This document shows, in pieces, positions 54,694-64,000 of a stretch of 64,000 nt of DNA. The position numbers and the translations under genes were made by a program. Under the pieces are notes generated by a model. It worked only from the letters and a program-made list of their open reading frames with translations. It was not told the origin of the DNA and searched no databases. The first letter of the stretch is position 1. The number at the start of each line of letters is the position of its first letter. Origin of the DNA: Methylobacterium sp. PvR107 (lineage in GTDB: Bacteria > Pseudomonadota > Alphaproteobacteria > Rhizobiales > Beijerinckiaceae); contig NZ_JAFIBW010000001.1 in the NCBI RefSeq assembly GCF_017833295.1, forward strand, positions 682,001 to 746,000, in the 5' to 3' direction.

Positions 54694-55869
54694 CTAGAAG
54701 TACGACTTCAGCACGCCCCGGCGCCGCACGTCGAGCGTGGCGCAGTGGAACGAGCCGCCGAACGGGCCGTAGCTGAGGAACGGCGCCGGGATCGGGTCGA
54801 AGCCCCAATCCTTGAGCGCCTTGATCAGCGTCGGCTGGCTCTGGTCGACGACGATCTTCTTCTCGGTGATCGCCAGGACGTTGATCGAGGTCCAGGGCGA
54901 GCACATCGAGATCTTGCTCATGAAGCCCTCGACCGGGTCGGGGCGCGGGGCGATCAGCACGTCCCACTTCTTGAGCACGGCCGGCAGCTTCTCGACGTCG
55001 ACGTAGTCCGGGTTCACCAGCACCTTGCCGGGGGCCAGCGGCATGAACGACGAATCGATATGCATCGGCTGCGGGCAGCGGCTCTCGATCTCGTGGATGC
55101 GGAAGCCCGGGCCGAGGTGGCGGCGCAGCCACTCGATGCCCATCAGGTTGGTCACGTTCGAGCGGGTGACGAACAAGTCGCGGCCGCAGCGGACGAAGTC
55201 GGCGGCGTCGAAGACCGGCTCGAACTCGTTGACGGTGAACTGCATGGGCTCGCCGGCCTTCAGGTTCGGCACCCGGTAATCGTAATTGTAGAGGTCGTCG
55301 GTCAGCTGCGGCCGCGGCGCCGAGGTCCAGCGGGCGCCGGCGCGGAAGTATTCCTTGAACAGCGACCGGTAGGCGTCGCCCTCGAAGTAGCGCGAGCGCC
55401 AGCACATCGGGCTCTCGATGATCTCGTCGCCGATGACGAGGTACGGGTCGCGCGGGCAGGCGACGCAGAAGCCCCGGGAGGTCCAGCGCGGCGCCTTGAA
55501 CTTCTTGGAGAAGTCCACCGTGTCGGGGCGGCGGACCTTCACGCCCTCACCGGCCAGGATGGTGATGAAGTTGTCGAGCTCGGCCTGGGCGAGCTTCTTC
55601 ATGAACTTCGGATACTTCCAGCCGCTCGCCAGCCGGTAGAACGGTTGCGCGGCGCGCGGCAGGTTGAAGATCACGGTCAGGTGGTGGGTCGGGATCGTGG
55701 CGCCGTCGAGCGAACCGACGATCACCTCCTCCAGCGGATCCCACTCGTTCCAGGCCATCACCGGGGATTGCGGAGCCGGCACGCCCGGCCCCGTTCCACC
55801 CGGGAGGCCGCCGGCATGCGTGTCGTCGGTCACGGCCTCCACGGCCGTGATCGGTGATTCGCGCTCCAT
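54694..55869 (-). CDS. L-arginine:glycine amidinotransferase-like enzyme; candidate hopanoid amidinotransferase
   Basis: A protein of 391 residues, close to vertebrate AGAT in length. After a Pro/Gly-rich N-terminus, homology starts at MAWNEWDPLEEVIVGSLDGA. It shares ESPMCWRSRYFEGDAYR, EPVFDAADFVRCGRDLF (catalytic Asp, about residue 221), GIEWLRRHLGP, PMHIDSSFMPLAPGKVL (catalytic His270) and GGSFHCATLDVRRRG (nucleophile Cys376). The reaction should be transfer of the amidino group of arginine to an amine through a Cys-amidine intermediate. It diverges from hpnL with a 210-base promoter region. Inference: its acceptor may be the amino-cyclitol head group made by HpnI, HpnK and HpnJ. Glycine (creatine-like), lysine or inosamine are alternative acceptors. 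Confidence 0.88.
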   Translation of the reverse strand: MERESPITAVEAVTDDTHAGGLPGGTGPGVPAPQSPVMAWNEWDPLEEVIVGSLDGATIPTHHLTVIFNLPRAAQPFYRLASGWKYPKFMKKLAQAELDNFITILAGEGVKVRRPDTVDFSKKFKAPRWTSRGFCVACPRDPYLVIGDEIIESPMCWRSRYFEGDAYRSLFKEYFRAGARWTSAPRPQLTDDLYNYDYRVPNLKAGEPMQFTVNEFEPVFDAADFVRCGRDLFVTRSNVTNLMGIEWLRRHLGPGFRIHEIESRCPQPMHIDSSFMPLAPGKVLVNPDYVDVEKLPAVLKKWDVLIAPRPDPVEGFMSKISMCSPWTSINVLAITEKKIVVDQSQPTLIKALKDWGFDPIPAPFLSYGPFGGSFHCATLDVRRRGVLKSYF

Positions 55870-56079
55870 GACGTGTGCCCCTTCTGCGACGAGCCGCGAC
55901 CTTCTGCGTAGGCTCCTCGGCCCCGCCGCCGCTTTGGCCCCCGGTGTGTCAAACGGGTGATAGACACCGGTAATCCGTGCTGCAACGTGACAGAAACGTT
56001 CACGACCCGGCGGACCTATTTCTGCCGCGACCGTGGCCGATTTCCCGCATCAAGCCTGTTGCGAGCTTGAAAGACGACA

Positions 56080-57189
56080 ATGAAGCGCCTGACGACCCTG
56101 GCCTCGATCGCCGGTCTCTGCACGGTCGTCGGCCTGTTCATGTCCTCCGGCCTTGAGGATGTGTCGGCCGCCGTCGTGAGTGCCGGTTGGGGCGCCGCCC
56201 TCGTGGTGCTGGCCCGCCTCGTGGCCGTCGCCTGGGCAGGCCTCGGCTGGTACGTGGTGTTTCCGGCCGGGACGGCCAAGCTCGCCGACTGCGTCTCGCT
56301 CCGATTCGTGCGCGAGGGCATCAACACCCTCCTGCCCGTCGCCACCGTCGGCGGCGACTTCGTTGGCGCGCGCCTGCTCGCCAAGCGCGGCGTCACCGGC
56401 GCGCTCGCCGGTGCCAGCATGTTCGTCGACCTGATGACGCAGGCCCTGACGCAGCTTCTGTTCACGGTGCTCGGTCTGGCCCTGCTGGTCCTGATCTGCG
56501 GCGACGGGCCGATCGCCCGGACCGTCGAGGGCGGGCTGGCCCTGGCGGTGCCGGCGCTCGGCGCCTTCTACCTGATCCAGCGCCGGGCCGGGCACCGACT
56601 CATCCAGGGGTTGCTCAGCCGCTTCGCCTCCGGGCGCGAGTGGCGGGCCTTCGGTGCCATCGACCAGCTCTACGACAGCCTGCGCCGGCTCTACGGCAAC
56701 CGCGGCCGGTTCGTGTTCGCGCTGGCGGTCCACTTCGTCGGCTGGGTGATCGGAACGCTCGAAGTCTACGTCTGCCTGCGTTTCATGGGCTATCCCATCG
56801 ATTTCGCGCAGGCGCTGATGATCGAGAGCCTCGCTCAGGCGGTACGCGGCGCGGCCTTCGCGGTGCCCGGCGCCCTCGGGGCCCAGGAAGGCGGCCTGAT
56901 CGCCCTGTGCGGCCTGTTCGACATCCCGGTGGAGGCGGCGCTCGCCCTGTCCCTGGTCAAGCGCTTCGCAGATCTCGGCGTCGGGCTTCCGAGCCTGCTG
57001 CTCTGGCATCGGATCGAGGCCAGGATCCGGGCCGAGGCGCCGGATGAGGAGGATGCGCCGGTGGCGGATGCCGGGCGCAATGCCAAGCGGGTCGCGCAGC
57101 CGGTCACGCTCGGGCCGTTCTACAGCTACGCGCCGCCCCGGATGGGCGCGCGGCTCGGCGACGGCGAGGAGTTGAAGAAGTGCGCCTGA
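56080..57189 (+). CDS. hpnL: Hopanoid-associated membrane protein HpnL
   Basis: A protein of 369 residues with about eight transmembrane helices of the lysylphosphatidylglycerol-synthase TM / UPF0104 family. Family features are LRFVREGINTLLPVATVGGD, GARLLAKRGVTGALAGASMF and the segment IESLAQAVRGAAFAVPGALG then AQEGGLIAL. HpnL recurs in hopanoid clusters; it is proposed to act in hopanoid movement, but its role is not firmly shown. The gene opens a run of five hpn genes on the plus strand and overlaps hpnM by 10 bases. Confidence 0.9.
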   Translation: MKRLTTLASIAGLCTVVGLFMSSGLEDVSAAVVSAGWGAALVVLARLVAVAWAGLGWYVVFPAGTAKLADCVSLRFVREGINTLLPVATVGGDFVGARLLAKRGVTGALAGASMFVDLMTQALTQLLFTVLGLALLVLICGDGPIARTVEGGLALAVPALGAFYLIQRRAGHRLIQGLLSRFASGREWRAFGAIDQLYDSLRRLYGNRGRFVFALAVHFVGWVIGTLEVYVCLRFMGYPIDFAQALMIESLAQAVRGAAFAVPGALGAQEGGLIALCGLFDIPVEAALALSLVKRFADLGVGLPSLLLWHRIEARIRAEAPDEEDAPVADAGRNAKRVAQPVTLGPFYSYAPPRMGARLGDGEELKKCA

Positions 57190-57791
57190 CCCGTCGCCTC
57201 GCCGCCGCCCTCATCGCCGTCCCCCTGCTCGTCCCGGTCCCGTCATGGGCCGCGGACGATCCGGCCGTTCAGACGGTGCGCGACCTTTACGCCGCCTTCA
57301 CGGCCGCGCTGAAGGACGGACCCGGTCCCCTGCCCGCCCGGGTCGAAGCGGTGGGGCCGGCCATCGACAAGGCGTTCGACTTCCCCGCCATGACCCGCAT
57401 CGCCGTCGGCGCGAAGTGGGCGAGCTTCACGCCGGAGCAGCAGGCGGCGGTCATCGACGCGTTCAAGCGCAGCCTGACCGTGACCTATGCCAACCGGTTG
57501 GCCCGCGCGGCTGGCGGCAAGTTCGACGTCACCCCCAAGGTCGAGGAGCGCGGTGCCCAGCGCGTGGTCGTGACCCGTGTCACCGCGTCGGACGGCGACG
57601 ATTCCGAGGTCGACTTCGTCGTCAACGCCAGCAACCGCATCCAGGACGTCCTGCTCAACGGTGACGTGAGCGAGGTCGCGGCCCAGCGCAACGCGCTCTC
57701 CGCGCCGCTGAAGACCGGCGGAGCCGACGGGGTCGTCAAGTTTCTCCGCCAGCGGGCCGACGGGATGCTGGCCGCCAAACCGACGCCGTGA
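57180..57791 (+). CDS. hpnM: Hopanoid-associated periplasmic protein HpnM (MlaC-like)
   Basis: A protein of 203 residues from GTG at 57180. MRLTRRLAAALIAVPLLVPV then PSWA is a signal peptide. The mature part is an MlaC/Ttg2D-like lipid-binding fold: DKAFDFPAMTRIAVGAKWAS, FTPEQQAAVIDAFKRSLTVT, then VTRVTASDGDDSEVDFVVN and IQDVLLNGDVSEV. It may carry hopanoids or phospholipids across the periplasm. The start is inside hpnL, so the two are coupled. Confidence 0.9.
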   Translation: MRLTRRLAAALIAVPLLVPVPSWAADDPAVQTVRDLYAAFTAALKDGPGPLPARVEAVGPAIDKAFDFPAMTRIAVGAKWASFTPEQQAAVIDAFKRSLTVTYANRLARAAGGKFDVTPKVEERGAQRVVVTRVTASDGDDSEVDFVVNASNRIQDVLLNGDVSEVAAQRNALSAPLKTGGADGVVKFLRQRADGMLAAKPTP

Positions 57792-57877: not shown

Positions 57878-59086
57878 ATGGATCTCTCCTCGCTGGCGCT
57901 GAACGGGCTTTCGTGGCTGTCGCTGATCTGCCTGATCCTGGCGGCGTCGGGCGGCCTCTACAGCTTGGCCGCAGCCTTTTGCGCCGGCCGTTACGCGGCG
58001 CGGGCCATGCCGGAACTGGCCCCCGGCGCGCCCCGGCCGTCCGTGACCATGCTCAAGCCGCTCTGCGGCCTGGAGCCGAATCTCTACGAGAACCTCGAGA
58101 CCGTGCTGCGCCAGGATTATGCCGGCGCCGTCCAAGTGATCTTCGGCGTCCAGAGAGCCAGTGATCCCGCCATCGGCGTAGTCGATCGGCTGCGGCAGGC
58201 CTATCCCGCCGCGCGCATCGACCTCGTGATCGACGGCCGCCAGCACGGCTCGAACCGCAAGGTCTCAAACCTGATCAACATGGCCGAGCGGATCGCGCAC
58301 GACGTCGTGGTGCTGGCCGACAGCGACATGCTGGTCCGGCCCGATTACCTGGAGCGCCTGGTCGCGGAGCTGTCGCAGGACGGCGTCTCGGGCGTGACCT
58401 GCCTCTATCACGGCGTACCCGCCTATCGTGGCCTCTATGACCAGCTCTCGACGCTGGCGATCGACACCCACTTCCTGCCCAACGTCGTGATGGGCCTGAG
58501 CCTCGGGCTGGCGAAGCCCTGCTTCGGCTCCACCATCGCCTTCACCCGGGCGAGCCTCGACGCGGTGGGCGGATTCCGCAGCTTCCGCGACGACCTGGCG
58601 GACGATTACGCGATCGGGGCGGCCCTGCGCGGCCTTGGCGGCCGGGTGGTGATCCCGAGCTTCACCATCGGCCATACCAGCGTCGACACGGACTTGTCCG
58701 GCCTCTGGCGGCACGAGCTGCGCTGGAACCGCACGATCCGCAACGTCGATCCGGCCGGCTATGCTGGATCTATCGTCACGCATGCCTTCCCGCTGGCCCT
58801 GCTCGGGGCCCTGCTGCCGGGCGCCGGCACCGGCGCACTCTGGATCGCCGCGGCGGCGCTGGCGAGCCGTGTCTTGCTCTGCCGGCAGCTCGAACGCGCC
58901 TTCGGCCTCACCCCGCACCCCTACGGACTGTTGCCGATTCGCGACATCCTGTCCTTCCTGAACTTCGCCTGGGCCTTCATGTCGGGGGCGGTGACATGGA
59001 AAGGTCACGATTATCACGTGGTTGCGGATGGCACCCTGATCCCGGACGCCGAACTCGGCCGCGATGCCGGCGCGCCGCTCCGCTGA
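57878..59086 (+). CDS. hpnI: Hopanoid glycosyltransferase HpnI
   Basis: A protein of 402 residues. One N-terminal transmembrane helix is followed by a GT21-type (ceramide glucosyltransferase-like) domain, VTMLKPLCGLEPNLYENLET, with D1/D2 motifs in VVVLADSDMLVRPDYL and DDLADDYAIG and the (Q/R)xxRW motif in HELRWNRTIRN. Three C-terminal hydrophobic segments anchor it. In Burkholderia HpnI adds N-acetylglucosamine to bacteriohopanetetrol. It lies 86 bases after hpnM. Confidence 0.93.
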   Translation: MDLSSLALNGLSWLSLICLILAASGGLYSLAAAFCAGRYAARAMPELAPGAPRPSVTMLKPLCGLEPNLYENLETVLRQDYAGAVQVIFGVQRASDPAIGVVDRLRQAYPAARIDLVIDGRQHGSNRKVSNLINMAERIAHDVVVLADSDMLVRPDYLERLVAELSQDGVSGVTCLYHGVPAYRGLYDQLSTLAIDTHFLPNVVMGLSLGLAKPCFGSTIAFTRASLDAVGGFRSFRDDLADDYAIGAALRGLGGRVVIPSFTIGHTSVDTDLSGLWRHELRWNRTIRNVDPAGYAGSIVTHAFPLALLGALLPGAGTGALWIAAAALASRVLLCRQLERAFGLTPHPYGLLPIRDILSFLNFAWAFMSGAVTWKGHDYHVVADGTLIPDAELGRDAGAPLR

Positions 59087-59143
59087 ACCCGGCTTCCTCG
59101 TCCCTCCGCCCTCCCCCGGCATTGCCCTGAGGCCTTGAACCCC

Positions 59144-60577
59144 ATGCGCACGCTCTTCCTCCAGGCCCCCACCTTCGACGGTTTCGACGGCGGTGCCGGC
59201 TCCCGCTATCAGGCCAAGCGCGAGATCAAGTCGTTCTGGTACCCGACCTGGCTGGCCCAGCCGGCCGCCCTGGTGCCGAACTCGAAGCTGATCGACGCGC
59301 CGCCGCACAACATCAAGCTTCCCGAGATCGTGGCCCAGGCCAACGACTTCGATCTCGTCGTGCTCCACACCTCGGTGCCGTCGTTCAAGTCGGACGTGAA
59401 GACGATCGAGGCGCTGAAGGCCGCCAATCCGAAGCTCATCGCCGGCCTGATCGGCGCCAAGGTCGCGGTCGACGCCGCCGGCGCCATGGCCCAGGCCCCG
59501 GTGGTCGATTTCTGCGCCCGCAACGAGTTCGACTTCACCGTGAAGGAAGTCGCCGACGGCGTGCCGATGGCGCAGATCAAGGGTCTGTCCTATCGCGATG
59601 CCAACGGTGTCGTGGTCCACAACGAGGACCGCGAGATCATGACCGACATGGATCAGCTGCCCTTCGTCACCAGCGTCTACAAGCGCGACCTGGAGATGGA
59701 GAAGTACTTCATCGGTTACCTGAAGCACCCCTACATCTCGTTCTATTCGGGCCGGGGCTGCAAGAGCCGCTGCACCTTCTGCCTCTGGCCGCAGACGGTC
59801 GGCGGCCACACCTACCGCACCCGCTCGGTCGCCCACGTGATCGAGGAGATCAAGTACTGCCTGAAGGAATTCCCTCAGACCAAGGAGTTCTTCTTCGACG
59901 ACGACACCTTCACCGACAACCTGCCGCGCGCCGAGGAGATCGCCCGCGAGCTCGGCAAGCTCGGCGTCACGTGGTCGTGCAACGCCAAGGCAAACGTGCC
60001 GCGTGAGACCCTGAAGGTGCTCAAGGAGAACGGCCTGCGCCTGCTGCTGGTCGGCTACGAATCCGGCAACCAGACCATCCTGCACAACATCAAGAAGGGC
60101 ATGCGGGTCGAGGTCGCCGAGAAGTTCACCCAGGATTGCCACGACCTCGGCATCGCCATCCACGGCACCTTCATCCTCGGCCTGCCGGGCGAGACCAAGG
60201 AGACGATCCAGGAGACGATCGCCTTCGCCAAGCGGATCAACCCGCACACGATCCAGGTCTCCCTGGCGGCGCCCTACCCGGGCACCTTCCTGTACAAGCA
60301 GGCGGTGGAGAACGGCTGGCTCGACATCGAGAATGCCGAGCTCGTCGACGAGAACGGCGTGCAGGTCGCACCGCTGCACTACCCGCACCTCTCGCACACC
60401 GAGATCTTCACCTCGGTCGAGGAGTTCTACAAGAAGTTCTACTTCCGGGCGCCGAAGATCGCCTCGATCGTCAGCGAGATGGTGCGTTCGCCCGACATGA
60501 TGAAGCGTCGCCTGCGCGAGGGCGTCGAGTTCTACCGCTTCCTCAAGGAGCGTCAGGGCACCGCCAAGGCGGCGTAA
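59144..60577 (+). CDS. hpnJ: Hopanoid radical SAM enzyme HpnJ
   Basis: A protein of 477 residues. An N-terminal B12-binding-like Rossmann region (MRTLFLQAPTFDGFDGGAGS onward) precedes the radical SAM core with the cluster motif GRGCKSRCTFCLWPQ (Cys206, Cys210, Cys213). Further features are EFFFDDDTFTDNLPRAEEIA and LLVGYESGNQTILHNIKKGM. HpnJ converts the glucosaminyl group of bacteriohopanetetrol into the cyclitol ether by ring contraction. ATG at 59144 is used; a TTG three codons earlier is closer to GAGG but less likely. Confidence 0.95.
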   Translation: MRTLFLQAPTFDGFDGGAGSRYQAKREIKSFWYPTWLAQPAALVPNSKLIDAPPHNIKLPEIVAQANDFDLVVLHTSVPSFKSDVKTIEALKAANPKLIAGLIGAKVAVDAAGAMAQAPVVDFCARNEFDFTVKEVADGVPMAQIKGLSYRDANGVVVHNEDREIMTDMDQLPFVTSVYKRDLEMEKYFIGYLKHPYISFYSGRGCKSRCTFCLWPQTVGGHTYRTRSVAHVIEEIKYCLKEFPQTKEFFFDDDTFTDNLPRAEEIARELGKLGVTWSCNAKANVPRETLKVLKENGLRLLLVGYESGNQTILHNIKKGMRVEVAEKFTQDCHDLGIAIHGTFILGLPGETKETIQETIAFAKRINPHTIQVSLAAPYPGTFLYKQAVENGWLDIENAELVDENGVQVAPLHYPHLSHTEIFTSVEEFYKKFYFRAPKIASIVSEMVRSPDMMKRRLREGVEFYRFLKERQGTAKAA

Positions 60578-60683: not shown

Positions 60684-61526
60684 GTGAAGCGTCTGGTCGT
60701 CACCGCCGACGATTTTGGGCTGAGCCCCGAGGTCAACGAGGCCGTCGAGCGGGCGCACCGCGACGGGATCCTCACCGCGGCGAGCCTGATGGTCTCGGCC
60801 CCGGCCGCCGCCGACGCGGTGGCCCGGGCCAAGCGGATGCCGTCCCTGCGGGTCGGGCTGCACCTCGTCCTCGTGGAGGCGTGGCCCACCCTTCCGGCGG
60901 CGGACCTGCCCGACCTGACCGACACGGCCGGCCTGATGCGCGCCGATATGGGTCGCCTGGGCCTCGACTTCGCCCGCAAGCCCGCGGCCCGCCGCCAGCT
61001 CGCCGCCGAAATCCGCGCGCAGTTCGAGGCCTATCGGGCGACCGGTCTGCCGCTGGACCACGTCAACGCCCACAAGCACTTCCATGTTCACCCGCTGATC
61101 GCGGGCGCGGTGCTGCGCATCGGCCGGGATTTCGGGATGCGCGCCCTGCGGGTGCCCCGGGAGCCGCGGGAGATCCTGCGCCGCGCCGAGCCCGGCGCCC
61201 GGCCGCGGCCGGCCCTCGACATCGCCCCCTGGGCGGCGCTGCTCGCGGTCCGCGCCCGGCAGGCCGGGCTGCTGATCCCCGACCGCACCCTCGGCCTCGC
61301 GTGGTCCGGCGCCATGACGCCCGCTCGCGTCGCCGCTCTGCTGACCGAACTCCCGAACGGCCTGACCGAGCTCTACACCCACCCGGCCACCGCCGGCGGC
61401 TTCCCGGGCGAGGCACCGGGCTACCGCTACGTCGACGAGCGGAACGCGTTGATCGCCCCCGCCTCGCGGTCGGCCGCCGACGCGTCGGGCGCGATCCGCG
61501 GCGGGTTCTCCGACTTCCTCGGTTGA
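60684..61526 (+). CDS. hpnK: Hopanoid deacetylase HpnK (YdjC family)
   Basis: A protein of 280 residues. It has the YdjC/ChbG motifs LVVTADDFGLSPEVNEAVE (metal Asp pair), LRVGLHLVLVEAWP (His) and LDHVNAHKHFHVHPLIAGAV (metal His cluster). HpnK removes the acetyl group from the N-acetylglucosaminyl hopanoid made by HpnI, freeing the amine needed for the cyclitol-amine head group. GTG at 60684 follows GAGGTTCTC, a good ribosome binding site. Confidence 0.93.
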   Translation: MKRLVVTADDFGLSPEVNEAVERAHRDGILTAASLMVSAPAAADAVARAKRMPSLRVGLHLVLVEAWPTLPAADLPDLTDTAGLMRADMGRLGLDFARKPAARRQLAAEIRAQFEAYRATGLPLDHVNAHKHFHVHPLIAGAVLRIGRDFGMRALRVPREPREILRRAEPGARPRPALDIAPWAALLAVRARQAGLLIPDRTLGLAWSGAMTPARVAALLTELPNGLTELYTHPATAGGFPGEAPGYRYVDERNALIAPASRSAADASGAIRGGFSDFLG

Positions 61527-61558: not shown

Positions 61559-62434
61559 ATGACGTCGATCGACATCGCCCGCGTCCGCCGATTCGCGCGG
61601 GCCGTCACCGCCGAGGTCGGTGCGCTCGACGGCTCGTTCCTGGGACGAGGCCGACCGCTCGGGGTCGCGCGCGTCCTGAACGCCATCGGCGCCGGGCGGA
61701 CCGAGATCGGCGAGATCCGCGCCTATCTGGGCCTCGATTCCGGACTGATGAGCCGCCTTCTGCGGAGCCTGGAGGTCGAGGGCCTGGTGGTGACGGCGCC
61801 GCATCCCACCGATGCCCGCCGCCGGATCGCGTCGCTGACGGCAGCGGGGCAGCGGGAATTCGAGGCCTACGAGGCTCTGTCGAACGCCCGCGCGGCCCTC
61901 CTGCTCGAGCGCACGCCGCACACGGACGAACTCCTGCGCGCCATGGATCGGGTCGCCCTCGCGCTCGGCCAGCACGCCATCGCCGTTGCGGAGGCTGATC
62001 CGCGCGGCGCGGCGGCCGGCGCCTGCCTCGGCGCCTACTATGCCGAACTGGGCCGTCGCTTCGCTTCGGGGTTCGACGTCGCGCTGTCCTGCGACCCGGA
62101 GGCGGCGGACATGGTCCGGCCGCGCGGCATCTTCCTGCTCGCCGTCGCGGACGGCCCCCCGGTCGGATGCGTCGGGCTCAAGGGCAACGGCGGCCCGGTG
62201 GCGGAGGTCAAGCGGCTCTGGATCGATCCCGCCGCGCGAGGCCTCGGCCTCGCCAAGCGCCTGATGCACGACGTCGAGAATGCGGCCCGGGACCTCGGCA
62301 TCCGGACATTGCGGCTCGATACCAGCAGCGCCCTCCCCGAGGCTCTGTCGCTCTACCGGCGCTCCGGCTGGGTCGAGATCGACCGGTTCAACGACGACCC
62401 CTACCCGGACCACTTCTTCGAGAAGGTTCTCTGA
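61559..62434 (+). CDS. MarR-type regulator fused to a GNAT acetyltransferase
   Basis: A protein of 291 residues. The first 140 residues are a MarR winged helix (RTEIGEIRAYLGLDSGLMSR as recognition region; GLVVTAPHPTDARRRIASLT as wing). From about residue 150 a GNAT domain follows, with GIFLLAVADGPPVGCVGLKG, KRLWIDPAARGLGLAKRLMH (acetyl-CoA-binding motif A) and a C-terminal GWVEIDRFNDDPYPDHFFEK. The fusion is found in several Actinobacteria and Proteobacteria; the ligand is unknown. It is convergent with hpnN, 7 bases apart, and downstream of hpnK. Confidence 0.9.
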   Translation: MTSIDIARVRRFARAVTAEVGALDGSFLGRGRPLGVARVLNAIGAGRTEIGEIRAYLGLDSGLMSRLLRSLEVEGLVVTAPHPTDARRRIASLTAAGQREFEAYEALSNARAALLLERTPHTDELLRAMDRVALALGQHAIAVAEADPRGAAAGACLGAYYAELGRRFASGFDVALSCDPEAADMVRPRGIFLLAVADGPPVGCVGLKGNGGPVAEVKRLWIDPAARGLGLAKRLMHDVENAARDLGIRTLRLDTSSALPEALSLYRRSGWVEIDRFNDDPYPDHFFEKVL

Positions 62435-62441
62435 CCGGCGC

Positions 62442-64000
62442 CTACTTGGCCGGCACCGGTTCCTTCCGCGCCACGCTCTTCCGCAGGGCCGCACCGACGG
62501 CCTTCTCAGCCTCGGGACGGTCTTCGTCGGGCTGTGCCGGCGGCTCGCCGAGCGTCGCCGGGACCACGAAGAACGCCGCCACCAGGGTGAAGAACAGCGA
62601 GAGCGCGAGCAGCTTGCCCATGCTCGCGGTGCCCGGATGGCTCGACAGGACCAGCGACCCGAAGGCGCTGCCGGTGGTGAGCGCCGAGAAGAAGATCGCG
62701 CGGGTCAGGCTGGAGGCGAGCATGTCGTTCACGCCCGCCCGCCACGCGATCACGTAGTAGATGTGGAACGCCACGCCGACCGCGAGCATCAGCGGCAGCG
62801 CGATGATGTTGGCGAAGTTGAGCGGCATGCCGACGATGCGCAGGGCCATCAGCGTCCAGAGGGTCGCGATCACCAGCGGGCCCAGGGTCATCGCGACGTC
62901 CCAGGGCTTGCGCAGGGCCACCGACAGGATGACGAAGATCAGCACGAAGGCCGTGACCGCCGCCTGCACGAAGGCGCCCAGGATCGTGTAGCTCGACTGC
63001 GTGGTCGCGACGGGCGCGCCTGTGGCATGGGGCGCAACCTTCAGGACCTCGTCCGAGAAGGTCCGGAGCACCTGGTCGTCGTTCGAGTCGCCCTTCGGAT
63101 GGACCTCGATCCGCGCCCGCCCGTCGGCGGCGACCCAGTCGGCCTTGAGCTGCGGCGGCAGGTTGTCCAGCGTGATCTTGTCGGGGTGCAGCAGGTCGCG
63201 CAGGCGTGCCAGCAGCGGACCCAGATCCTTCGTCAGCGCGAAGGACGCGGCCTCGCGCTGCGGGACCGGACCGGCGGCGAGCTTGTCCAGGGTGCCGGCG
63301 AGCTGCTTGGCCGCCTGCGCTCCTTTCGCATCGCCCTTGGCCTCGCCCGCGACGCCGTTGAGGGCCGTCGCGGCATCCTTCAGCGCCTTCACGTTGTCGG
63401 CGTCGGTCGGCGGCGGCGGCCGGCGGCCGGGGTTCAGCACCGGATCGAGAAGCTGGGCCGTATCGGCGATCTGCGCGAGCTTCTTGTCCTGGTCCCGGGG
63501 CACGAACGTATCGATGCTGTTGACCGAAGCCGTCACCGGCAGCGCCGCCAGCGTCTTCGTCAGCGCCGGGACCGCTTCGACATTCGGGGCCAGCACGTCG
63601 ATGAGGTTCGGGCTGGTCTCCGGGTTCTTGATCAGGTCGAGATAGGTCGCGATCGACTGCGTCTTCGGACTGCGCAGATGCATCGGGTTGGAGTCGAACG
63701 GCAGGTTCCAGAGCAGCGGCGCGCCCGCCAGCGTCACAAGCCCGACGGCGAGCAGGATCGGCTTGCGATGGCGGATGATCCACGGATCGACGCCGACGAG
63801 CCACTCGGTCTGAACCGCGGACTTCTCGCCCTCCGGCTTGAACACCGCGATCAGCGCCGGGAGCAGCGTCAGGGAGAACAGGAAGGCCACGACCATGCCG
63901 ACGCCGGCGATCAGGCCGAGCTCGGACACGCCCCGGAAGGCGGTCGGCAGGAACGCGAAGAAGCCCGCCACCAGGGACACCGCGGCGAGGGTCAGCGACC
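62442..64000 (-). CDS. hpnN: Hopanoid RND transporter HpnN, C-terminal part (cut by window edge)
   Basis: About 519 residues of the C-terminal part are present; HpnN is normally about 870 residues, so the start lies beyond base 64000. Two RND-type transmembrane blocks flank a large periplasmic domain: GVSELGLIAGVGMVVAFLFS at the left, and AFVLIFVILSVALRKPWDV to FANIIALPLMLAVGVAFHIY at the right. The periplasmic part includes FDSNPMHLRSPKTQSIATYL. HpnN moves hopanoids to the outer membrane (shown in Rhodopseudomonas palustris). The gene runs against the hpn genes and ends 7 bases from the MarR-GNAT gene. Confidence 0.93.
   Translation of the reverse strand, partial: SLTLAAVSLVAGFFAFLPTAFRGVSELGLIAGVGMVVAFLFSLTLLPALIAVFKPEGEKSAVQTEWLVGVDPWIIRHRKPILLAVGLVTLAGAPLLWNLPFDSNPMHLRSPKTQSIATYLDLIKNPETSPNLIDVLAPNVEAVPALTKTLAALPVTASVNSIDTFVPRDQDKKLAQIADTAQLLDPVLNPGRRPPPPTDADNVKALKDAATALNGVAGEAKGDAKGAQAAKQLAGTLDKLAAGPVPQREAASFALTKDLGPLLARLRDLLHPDKITLDNLPPQLKADWVAADGRARIEVHPKGDSNDDQVLRTFSDEVLKVAPHATGAPVATTQSSYTILGAFVQAAVTAFVLIFVILSVALRKPWDVAMTLGPLVIATLWTLMALRIVGMPLNFANIIALPLMLAVGVAFHIYYVIAWRAGVNDMLASSLTRAIFFSALTTGSAFGSLVLSSHPGTASMGKLLALSLFFTLVAAFFVVPATLGEPPAQPDEDRPEAEKAVGAALRKSVARKEPVPAK

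Follow-up and report, generated by a model that had tools for sequence, protein, structure and literature searches.

We consider it likely, from sequence and genomic context, that an AGAT-type amidinotransferase (AT) of Methylobacterium sp. PvR107 is a hopanoid head-group amidinotransferase. Its gene lies among hpn genes in the stretch of 64,000 nucleotides that was analysed (the window). The initial annotation of this DNA had proposed that the enzyme moves the amidino group of arginine to the hopanoid amine, and this is the best-supported of the explanations weighed here. The reading is based on the integrity of the gene, the catalytic residues, the fold family, the conserved divergence from hpnL and the co-occurrence with HpnJ. 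We infer the donor, the acceptor and the order of the steps, the acceptor from the genomic context and the arginine donor and Cys376 intermediate from the family.

The amidinotransferase gene and its hpn neighbours

The initial annotation had described a full-length AGAT homologue with FDAADF, MHID and GGSFHC motifs, divergent from hpnL-hpnM-hpnI-hpnJ-hpnK across a 210-base gap. Both descriptions were borne out: the 391-codon reading frame is intact with all catalytic residues there, and the gap is as stated (Table 1). The motifs start at residues 220, 269 and 371, and the residues that align with the 300-flap of AGAT are C265-P-Q-P-M269. AT is the sole match to itself in its own 6.36-Mb single-contig genome (E <= 1e-3). 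When the protein was aligned to AGAT, its catalytic residues D141, D221, H270, D272 and C376 corresponded to D170, D254, H303, D305 and C407, and these were identical in 101 of 101 bacterial rows aligned (37 Methylobacteriaceae including the window, 36 other hopanoid-lineage, 16 Streptomyces, 7 SMR-type and 5 distant rows).

A phmmer search of the PDB returned SxtG (9e-131), human AGAT (6e-102), HsvA (2e-93) and StrB1 (3e-73), and a profile search ranked these solved relatives in the same order. The top structural matches of an AlphaFold2 model were the same proteins. The model is mediocre (mean pLDDT 69) and served for fold membership alone; its Foldseek match to SxtG (6u1r; E 1.4e-40, TM 0.78/0.85) places it in the amidinotransferase (pentein-type) fold. 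Pfam and PADLOC assigned no family to AT, and the single NCBIfam match was far under its cut-off (20.2 of 340 bits). The Asp/His/Cys set and the fold argue that AT is an AGAT-type amidinotransferase, which as a member of that family would transfer the amidino group of arginine.

Table 1. Features of the window at and around the amidinotransferase gene
Feature	Position	Strand	Remarks
AGAT-type amidinotransferase (AT)	54694..55869	minus	intact ORF, 391 aa
Intergenic region between AT and hpnL	55870..56079	none	210 bp, divergent, common to both
Conserved intergenic block, candidate promoter/operator	55928..55986	none	GCCGCTTTG, GTGTGTC, CGGGTGATAGACA, GCTGCAAC
hpnL, flippase-like membrane protein	56080..57189	+	TIGR03476 333.8 bits, above cut-off
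hpnM, MlaC-like	57180..57791	+	PF05494 99.5 bits, above cut-off; TIGR03481 104.6 bits, under 160.1 cut-off
hpnI, BHT N-acetylglucosaminyltransferase	57878..59086	+	TIGR03472 432.3 bits, above cut-off
hpnJ, radical SAM enzyme, cyclitol ether formation	59135..60577	+	TIGR03471 812 bits, above cut-off
hpnK, YdjC-type deacetylase freeing amine	60684..61526	+	TIGR03473 357.1 bits, above cut-off
hpnN, hopanoid transporter, C-terminal part near window edge	62442..63980	minus	NF052374 616.8 bits

The hpnN part covers positions 381-857 of the 858 in its profile and scores under the cut-off of 1100, as a partial gene would. Downstream of hpnK and before hpnN lies a MarR-GNAT fusion gene (61559-62434). 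It had matches in just three of the 35 Methylobacteriaceae loci in the best 80 of 307 relatives (L100, L113 and L122); some of these flanks were short.

In all 35 of these Methylobacteriaceae loci AT and hpnL are divergent across 205-298 bp, a constancy that chance does not explain. An alignment of the window with 23 of the 35 loci revealed the conserved block listed in Table 1; a scan of the intergenic region for the sigma-70 consensus found no site. The block is compatible with co-regulation of AT and the hpn genes, which would then form two jointly controlled units.

Distribution of the amidinotransferase and of HpnJ

The best 80 of 307 confirmed relatives were scanned as loci (35 Methylobacteriaceae, 29 other non-Streptomyces, 16 Streptomyces). 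By tblastn, hpnL, hpnI and hpnJ were in the flank of all 35 Methylobacteriaceae loci, and an hpn-type gene flanked 17 of the 29 other non-Streptomyces loci, Sphingomonas and Hyphomicrobium MAGs among them, and none of the 16 from Streptomyces. The adjacency of AT and hpn genes is thus kept across cyanobacteria, a planctomycete, Sphingomonas and Burkholderia. Genes of the hpnI/J/K type adjoin AT in Scytonema and, by tblastn, in Rhizonema. The Scytonema locus has HpnJ (752 bits) and two HpnK above cut-off and HpnI at 296 bits, just under its cut-off of 310; HpnJ at the planctomycete locus scored 731 bits, above cut-off. At five loci (L030, L054, L059, L069, L091) AT is away from hpnIJK, yet adjoins an HpnL that passes TIGR03476; the HpnL beside AT in L053 fails that model (138 bits).

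Several other features of these loci were observed. Scytonema and Rhizonema (L045, L047) carry two AT copies in a row, the second of which is 60-63% identical to that of the window. A family of proteins of about 280 aa (L045, L046, L047, L049, L162 and L032) lies beside AT or inside the hpn cluster in cyanobacteria and also, truncated where the contig stops, in an alphaproteobacterium; Pfam gave no match for the two of them that were scanned, those of L045 and L049. Genome G174 has a second hpnL near hpnJ (L031). The Streptomyces AT proteins are 57-64% identical to AT (16 loci).

HpnJ was searched in 36 of the 37 genomes whose AT flanks showed none, L054 being left out. It was present in 14 of the 20 non-Streptomyces genomes (13 above cut-off and one, G690, split over two contig ends) and in none of the 16 Streptomyces genomes. 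With 8 genomes that have HpnJ in the flank added and one double-counted genome removed, HpnJ accompanies AT in 21 of 27 genomes outside Methylobacteriaceae and Streptomyces, again among the best 80 of 307. The six without it, which count against the reading, are a 1.8-Mb Gloeocapsa MAG, Crenalkalicoccus roseus, a Baikal Acetobacteraceae MAG, the delta MAG CSP1-8, SZAS-1 and an Acidobacteriota MAG. Four are titled MAG, and C. roseus is an isolate; a near relative of CSP1-8 (L060) has HpnJ, and the AT of SZAS-1 falls outside the hopanoid lineage in the AT tree.

We also searched whole-genome samples of the family (119 genomes), class (240) and phylum (349), 673 distinct genomes together, with AT (E <= 1e-20) and the HpnJ model. 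HpnJ was above cut-off in 53 of the 673. AT of at least 63% identity was present in 12 genomes of 5 genera, all 12 with HpnJ above cut-off; the two genes were on one contig, 0.9 to 6.0 kb apart, in 10, and on separate contigs in the draft genomes G174 and G301. None of the 8 genomes with AT of 52-61% identity had HpnJ above cut-off (G102 had a partial match of 540 bits, cut-off 577.6), nor did any of 9 further genomes with relatives of 35-42% (the match in G399 was 363 bits). The association of HpnJ with AT of at least 63% identity has a Fisher p of about 1.6e-14 with shared ancestry ignored; since the genomes are related, 5 genera is the fairer count. The 63% line was drawn after the identities had been seen, and the AT tree supports it. 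HpnJ occurred without such an AT in 41 of the 53 genomes, the pattern that an optional guanidine step would give.

In the AT tree, as built from tblastn-oriented proteins, 16 Streptomyces and 6 alphaproteobacteria without above-cut-off HpnJ (22 rows) form a branch apart from 44 others, with support of 100/99.8, and they are grouped in a second AT tree as well. These 6 sister-lineage alphaproteobacteria and a planctomycete, L063, which is placed weakly with them, constitute the SMR-type group. The AT genes of this group have no hopanoid genes beside them. An SMR transporter gene is next to AT in six of its seven loci (L035, L036, L037, L038, L040 and L063; called by Pfam in four and by tblastn in L036 and L038), which suggests that this group may export a guanidino product. 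By tblastn, hpn genes were absent from the 16 Streptomyces flanks, whose gene orders have little in common. One planctomycete genome has both types of AT, L063 next to an SMR gene and L070 next to hpnIJK; the genome of L063 therefore has HpnJ. Every hopanoid-lineage row (73 of 73) and every distant row (5 of 5) has Ser at the position of AGAT Ser355, which we take to be an active-site position, but the Streptomyces and SMR-type rows have Gly there (23 of 23). That the lineages differ in the genes beside AT, in the presence of HpnJ and at this position argues against a single housekeeping function for both. According to the initial annotation, its proposal would be refuted if most homologues came from genomes lacking hpnJ. 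This is not the situation in the window lineage (HpnJ in 12 of 12 sampled genomes and, among the best 80 of 307, at 35 of 35 Methylobacteriaceae loci by tblastn and in 21 of 27 other genomes), but it does hold for the sister lineage (Streptomyces 0 of 16, alphaproteobacteria 0 of 6 above cut-off).

Two further samples, from other phyla, contained results that count against the reading. In the first, from the order to which Iningainema belongs (130 genomes), 5 genomes had AT at 73% identity or more, 16 had HpnJ and 3 had both (p about 0.013). The two with AT and without HpnJ are the Gloeocapsa MAG and G758; 13 of the 16 HpnJ genomes were without such an AT, and 8 genomes with lower-identity or broken AT relatives all lacked HpnJ. 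One genome with HpnJ and no AT, G749, was considered as evidence on the reported lipid producers and set aside as uninformative about them, since the cluster to which its HpnJ is 98% identical is named Cyanobacterium aponinum, not Dolichospermum. For the phylum of a Syntrophobacteraceae MAG (141 genomes), HpnJ was found in 13 and AT (E <= 1e-60) only in the seed MAG. The 12 of 13 HpnJ genomes without AT, in a sample that may or may not include Geobacter, weigh most heavily, of the genomic results, against a universal role, given that the lipid has been reported from Geobacter sulfurreducens. Geobacter was absent among the organism-named entries, a minority, of the 120 best matches listed for a deltaproteobacterial AT.

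Proposed reaction and alternative acceptors

Guanidine-substituted bacteriohopanetetrol (BHT) cyclitol ether is reported from some methylotrophs, Zymomonas mobilis, G. sulfurreducens, Dolichospermum, Aphanizomenon and a Gloeocapsa enrichment (PMC5642901); the Gloeocapsa MAG mentioned above (L049) carries AT. The lipid is also reported for M. extorquens (PMC5358736), in agreement with the statement of the initial annotation that Methylobacterium contains it. The annotation had further held that the enzyme adding the guanidine is unassigned. The literature searched, with most subscription journals outside its scope, yielded no assignment, and no paper in it joined 'amidinotransferase' and 'hopanoid'. 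A 2025 alphaproteobacterial survey lists 63 BHPD structures, and 'guanid' appears nowhere in its main text (PMC12583986). The species cultured for that survey include M. soli, M. oxalidis and M. rhodesianum (PMC12583986), and AT is present in M. soli (L073), M. oxalidis (L082) and M. rhodesianum (L093, a strain other than the surveyed one). This counts against the reading; either the cultures lacked the lipid in the conditions used, or the survey did not look for it.

The proposed sequence starts from the HpnI-HpnK-HpnJ cyclitol ether pathway of Schmerk et al. 2015, as described in PMC12583986. HpnI puts GlcNAc on bacteriohopanetetrol, HpnK frees the amine of the sugar, and HpnJ converts the sugar to the amino-cyclitol ether. 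AT would then load the amidino group of L-arginine onto Cys376 as an amidino-cysteine intermediate, with Asp221 and His270 assisting the transfer as in AGAT, and pass it to the head-group amine. The products would be guanidine-substituted BHT cyclitol ether and ornithine. BHT-glucosamine may be another acceptor.

If BHT-glucosamine is used before HpnJ acts, guanidine cyclitol ether could arise via guanidino-BHT-glucosamine, alone or alongside the route above. PMC5642901 describes guanidine BHT glucosamine from non-axenic Dolichospermum BIR53 and mentions unpublished data on it for Nostoc CCY9926. Four cyanobacterial loci (L045-L048) have AT immediately after an hpnI-type gene, and HpnJ is missing from 6 of the 27 AT genomes among the best 80 of 307. 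However, four of these six are MAGs and HpnJ is present in 12 of 12 proteobacterial AT genomes, and we regard this order of steps as rather unlikely. Another amine considered is that of 35-aminobacteriohopanetriol, the HpnO product. The chemistry would be the same, and PMC12583986 records aminotriol from 15 alphaproteobacterial species, of which only three lie outside the Hyphomicrobiales. In a comparison of genes of the hpnI/J/K and hpnL kind, AT clusters with these, and we regard this acceptor as very improbable. We know of no guanidino-aminotriol.

A general arginine:glycine (or lysine, or polyamine) amidinotransferase with a small guanidino product, adjacent to hpn genes through shared regulation or ancestry, was also considered and ranked low. 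The fold and catalytic set of AT are those of AGAT and HsvA, and the SMR transporter gene at six of seven loci of the related SMR-type group fits a small guanidino product there. The co-occurrence, and the fact that AT clusters with hpn genes again and again in different phyla, speak against such an enzyme in the window, as does the lack of conservation of AGAT N300 and of R322, presumably a carboxylate-binding residue (Q267 and Y289 in AT); we think it improbable, more so than action on BHT-glucosamine.

Implications and comparison with known systems

Transfer to the hopanoid head group as the function of AT provides a specific, testable gene for the last step towards guanidine-hopanoids, a step with no assignment in the literature found. 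If this is true, AT would be a genomic marker for guanidine-hopanoids, lipids proposed as tracers of source organisms (PMC5642901), clean mutants could probe the effect of a permanent positive charge on hopanoids, and a membrane lipid would join the known acceptors of the amidinotransferase family. Tentatively, the AT lineage may be a dedicated lipid-acceptor branch and such a marker. Together with hpnI/J/K, or paired with hpnL, it would have reached cyanobacteria, planctomycetes, Rokubacteria, Acetobacteraceae, Sphingomonas and Burkholderia, and its HpnL partner would move the cationic hopanoid across the membrane.

The HpnI/HpnK/HpnJ pathway supplies the proposed acceptor and its genes are adjacent to AT, but no amidinotransferase step has been assigned to it in the papers found. 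AGAT (GATM, 1jdw) has the same fold, and D254, H303, D305, C407 and D170 are all kept in AT. The two differ in context, that of AT being hopanoid, and at R322, which is Y289 in AT. They also differ in the 300-flap, which is DPNPM in AGAT (PMC4887976) and CPQPM in AT. At the glycine-site positions, where N300 and M302 are catalytic-site residues of AGAT (PMC3684758), M302 is kept, N300 is replaced by Q267 and D298 by C265; AT was not classed as a glycine enzyme.

StrB1 (1bwd), named as an inosamine-phosphate enzyme in PMC4887976, is the chemical precedent for transfer of an arginine amidino group to an aminocyclitol. It is more distant from AT (250 bits; 39% in the fold match), and its acceptor is soluble and phosphorylated, without lipid. 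The closest solved relative by both sequence (439 bits) and fold (TM 0.78/0.85) is SxtG (6u1r), whose acceptor is larger than an amino acid. SxtG differs in belonging to the saxitoxin pathway, whereas the AT of the window lies amid hpn genes, and the PMHID of AT stands at the aligned site where SxtG has ALHID.
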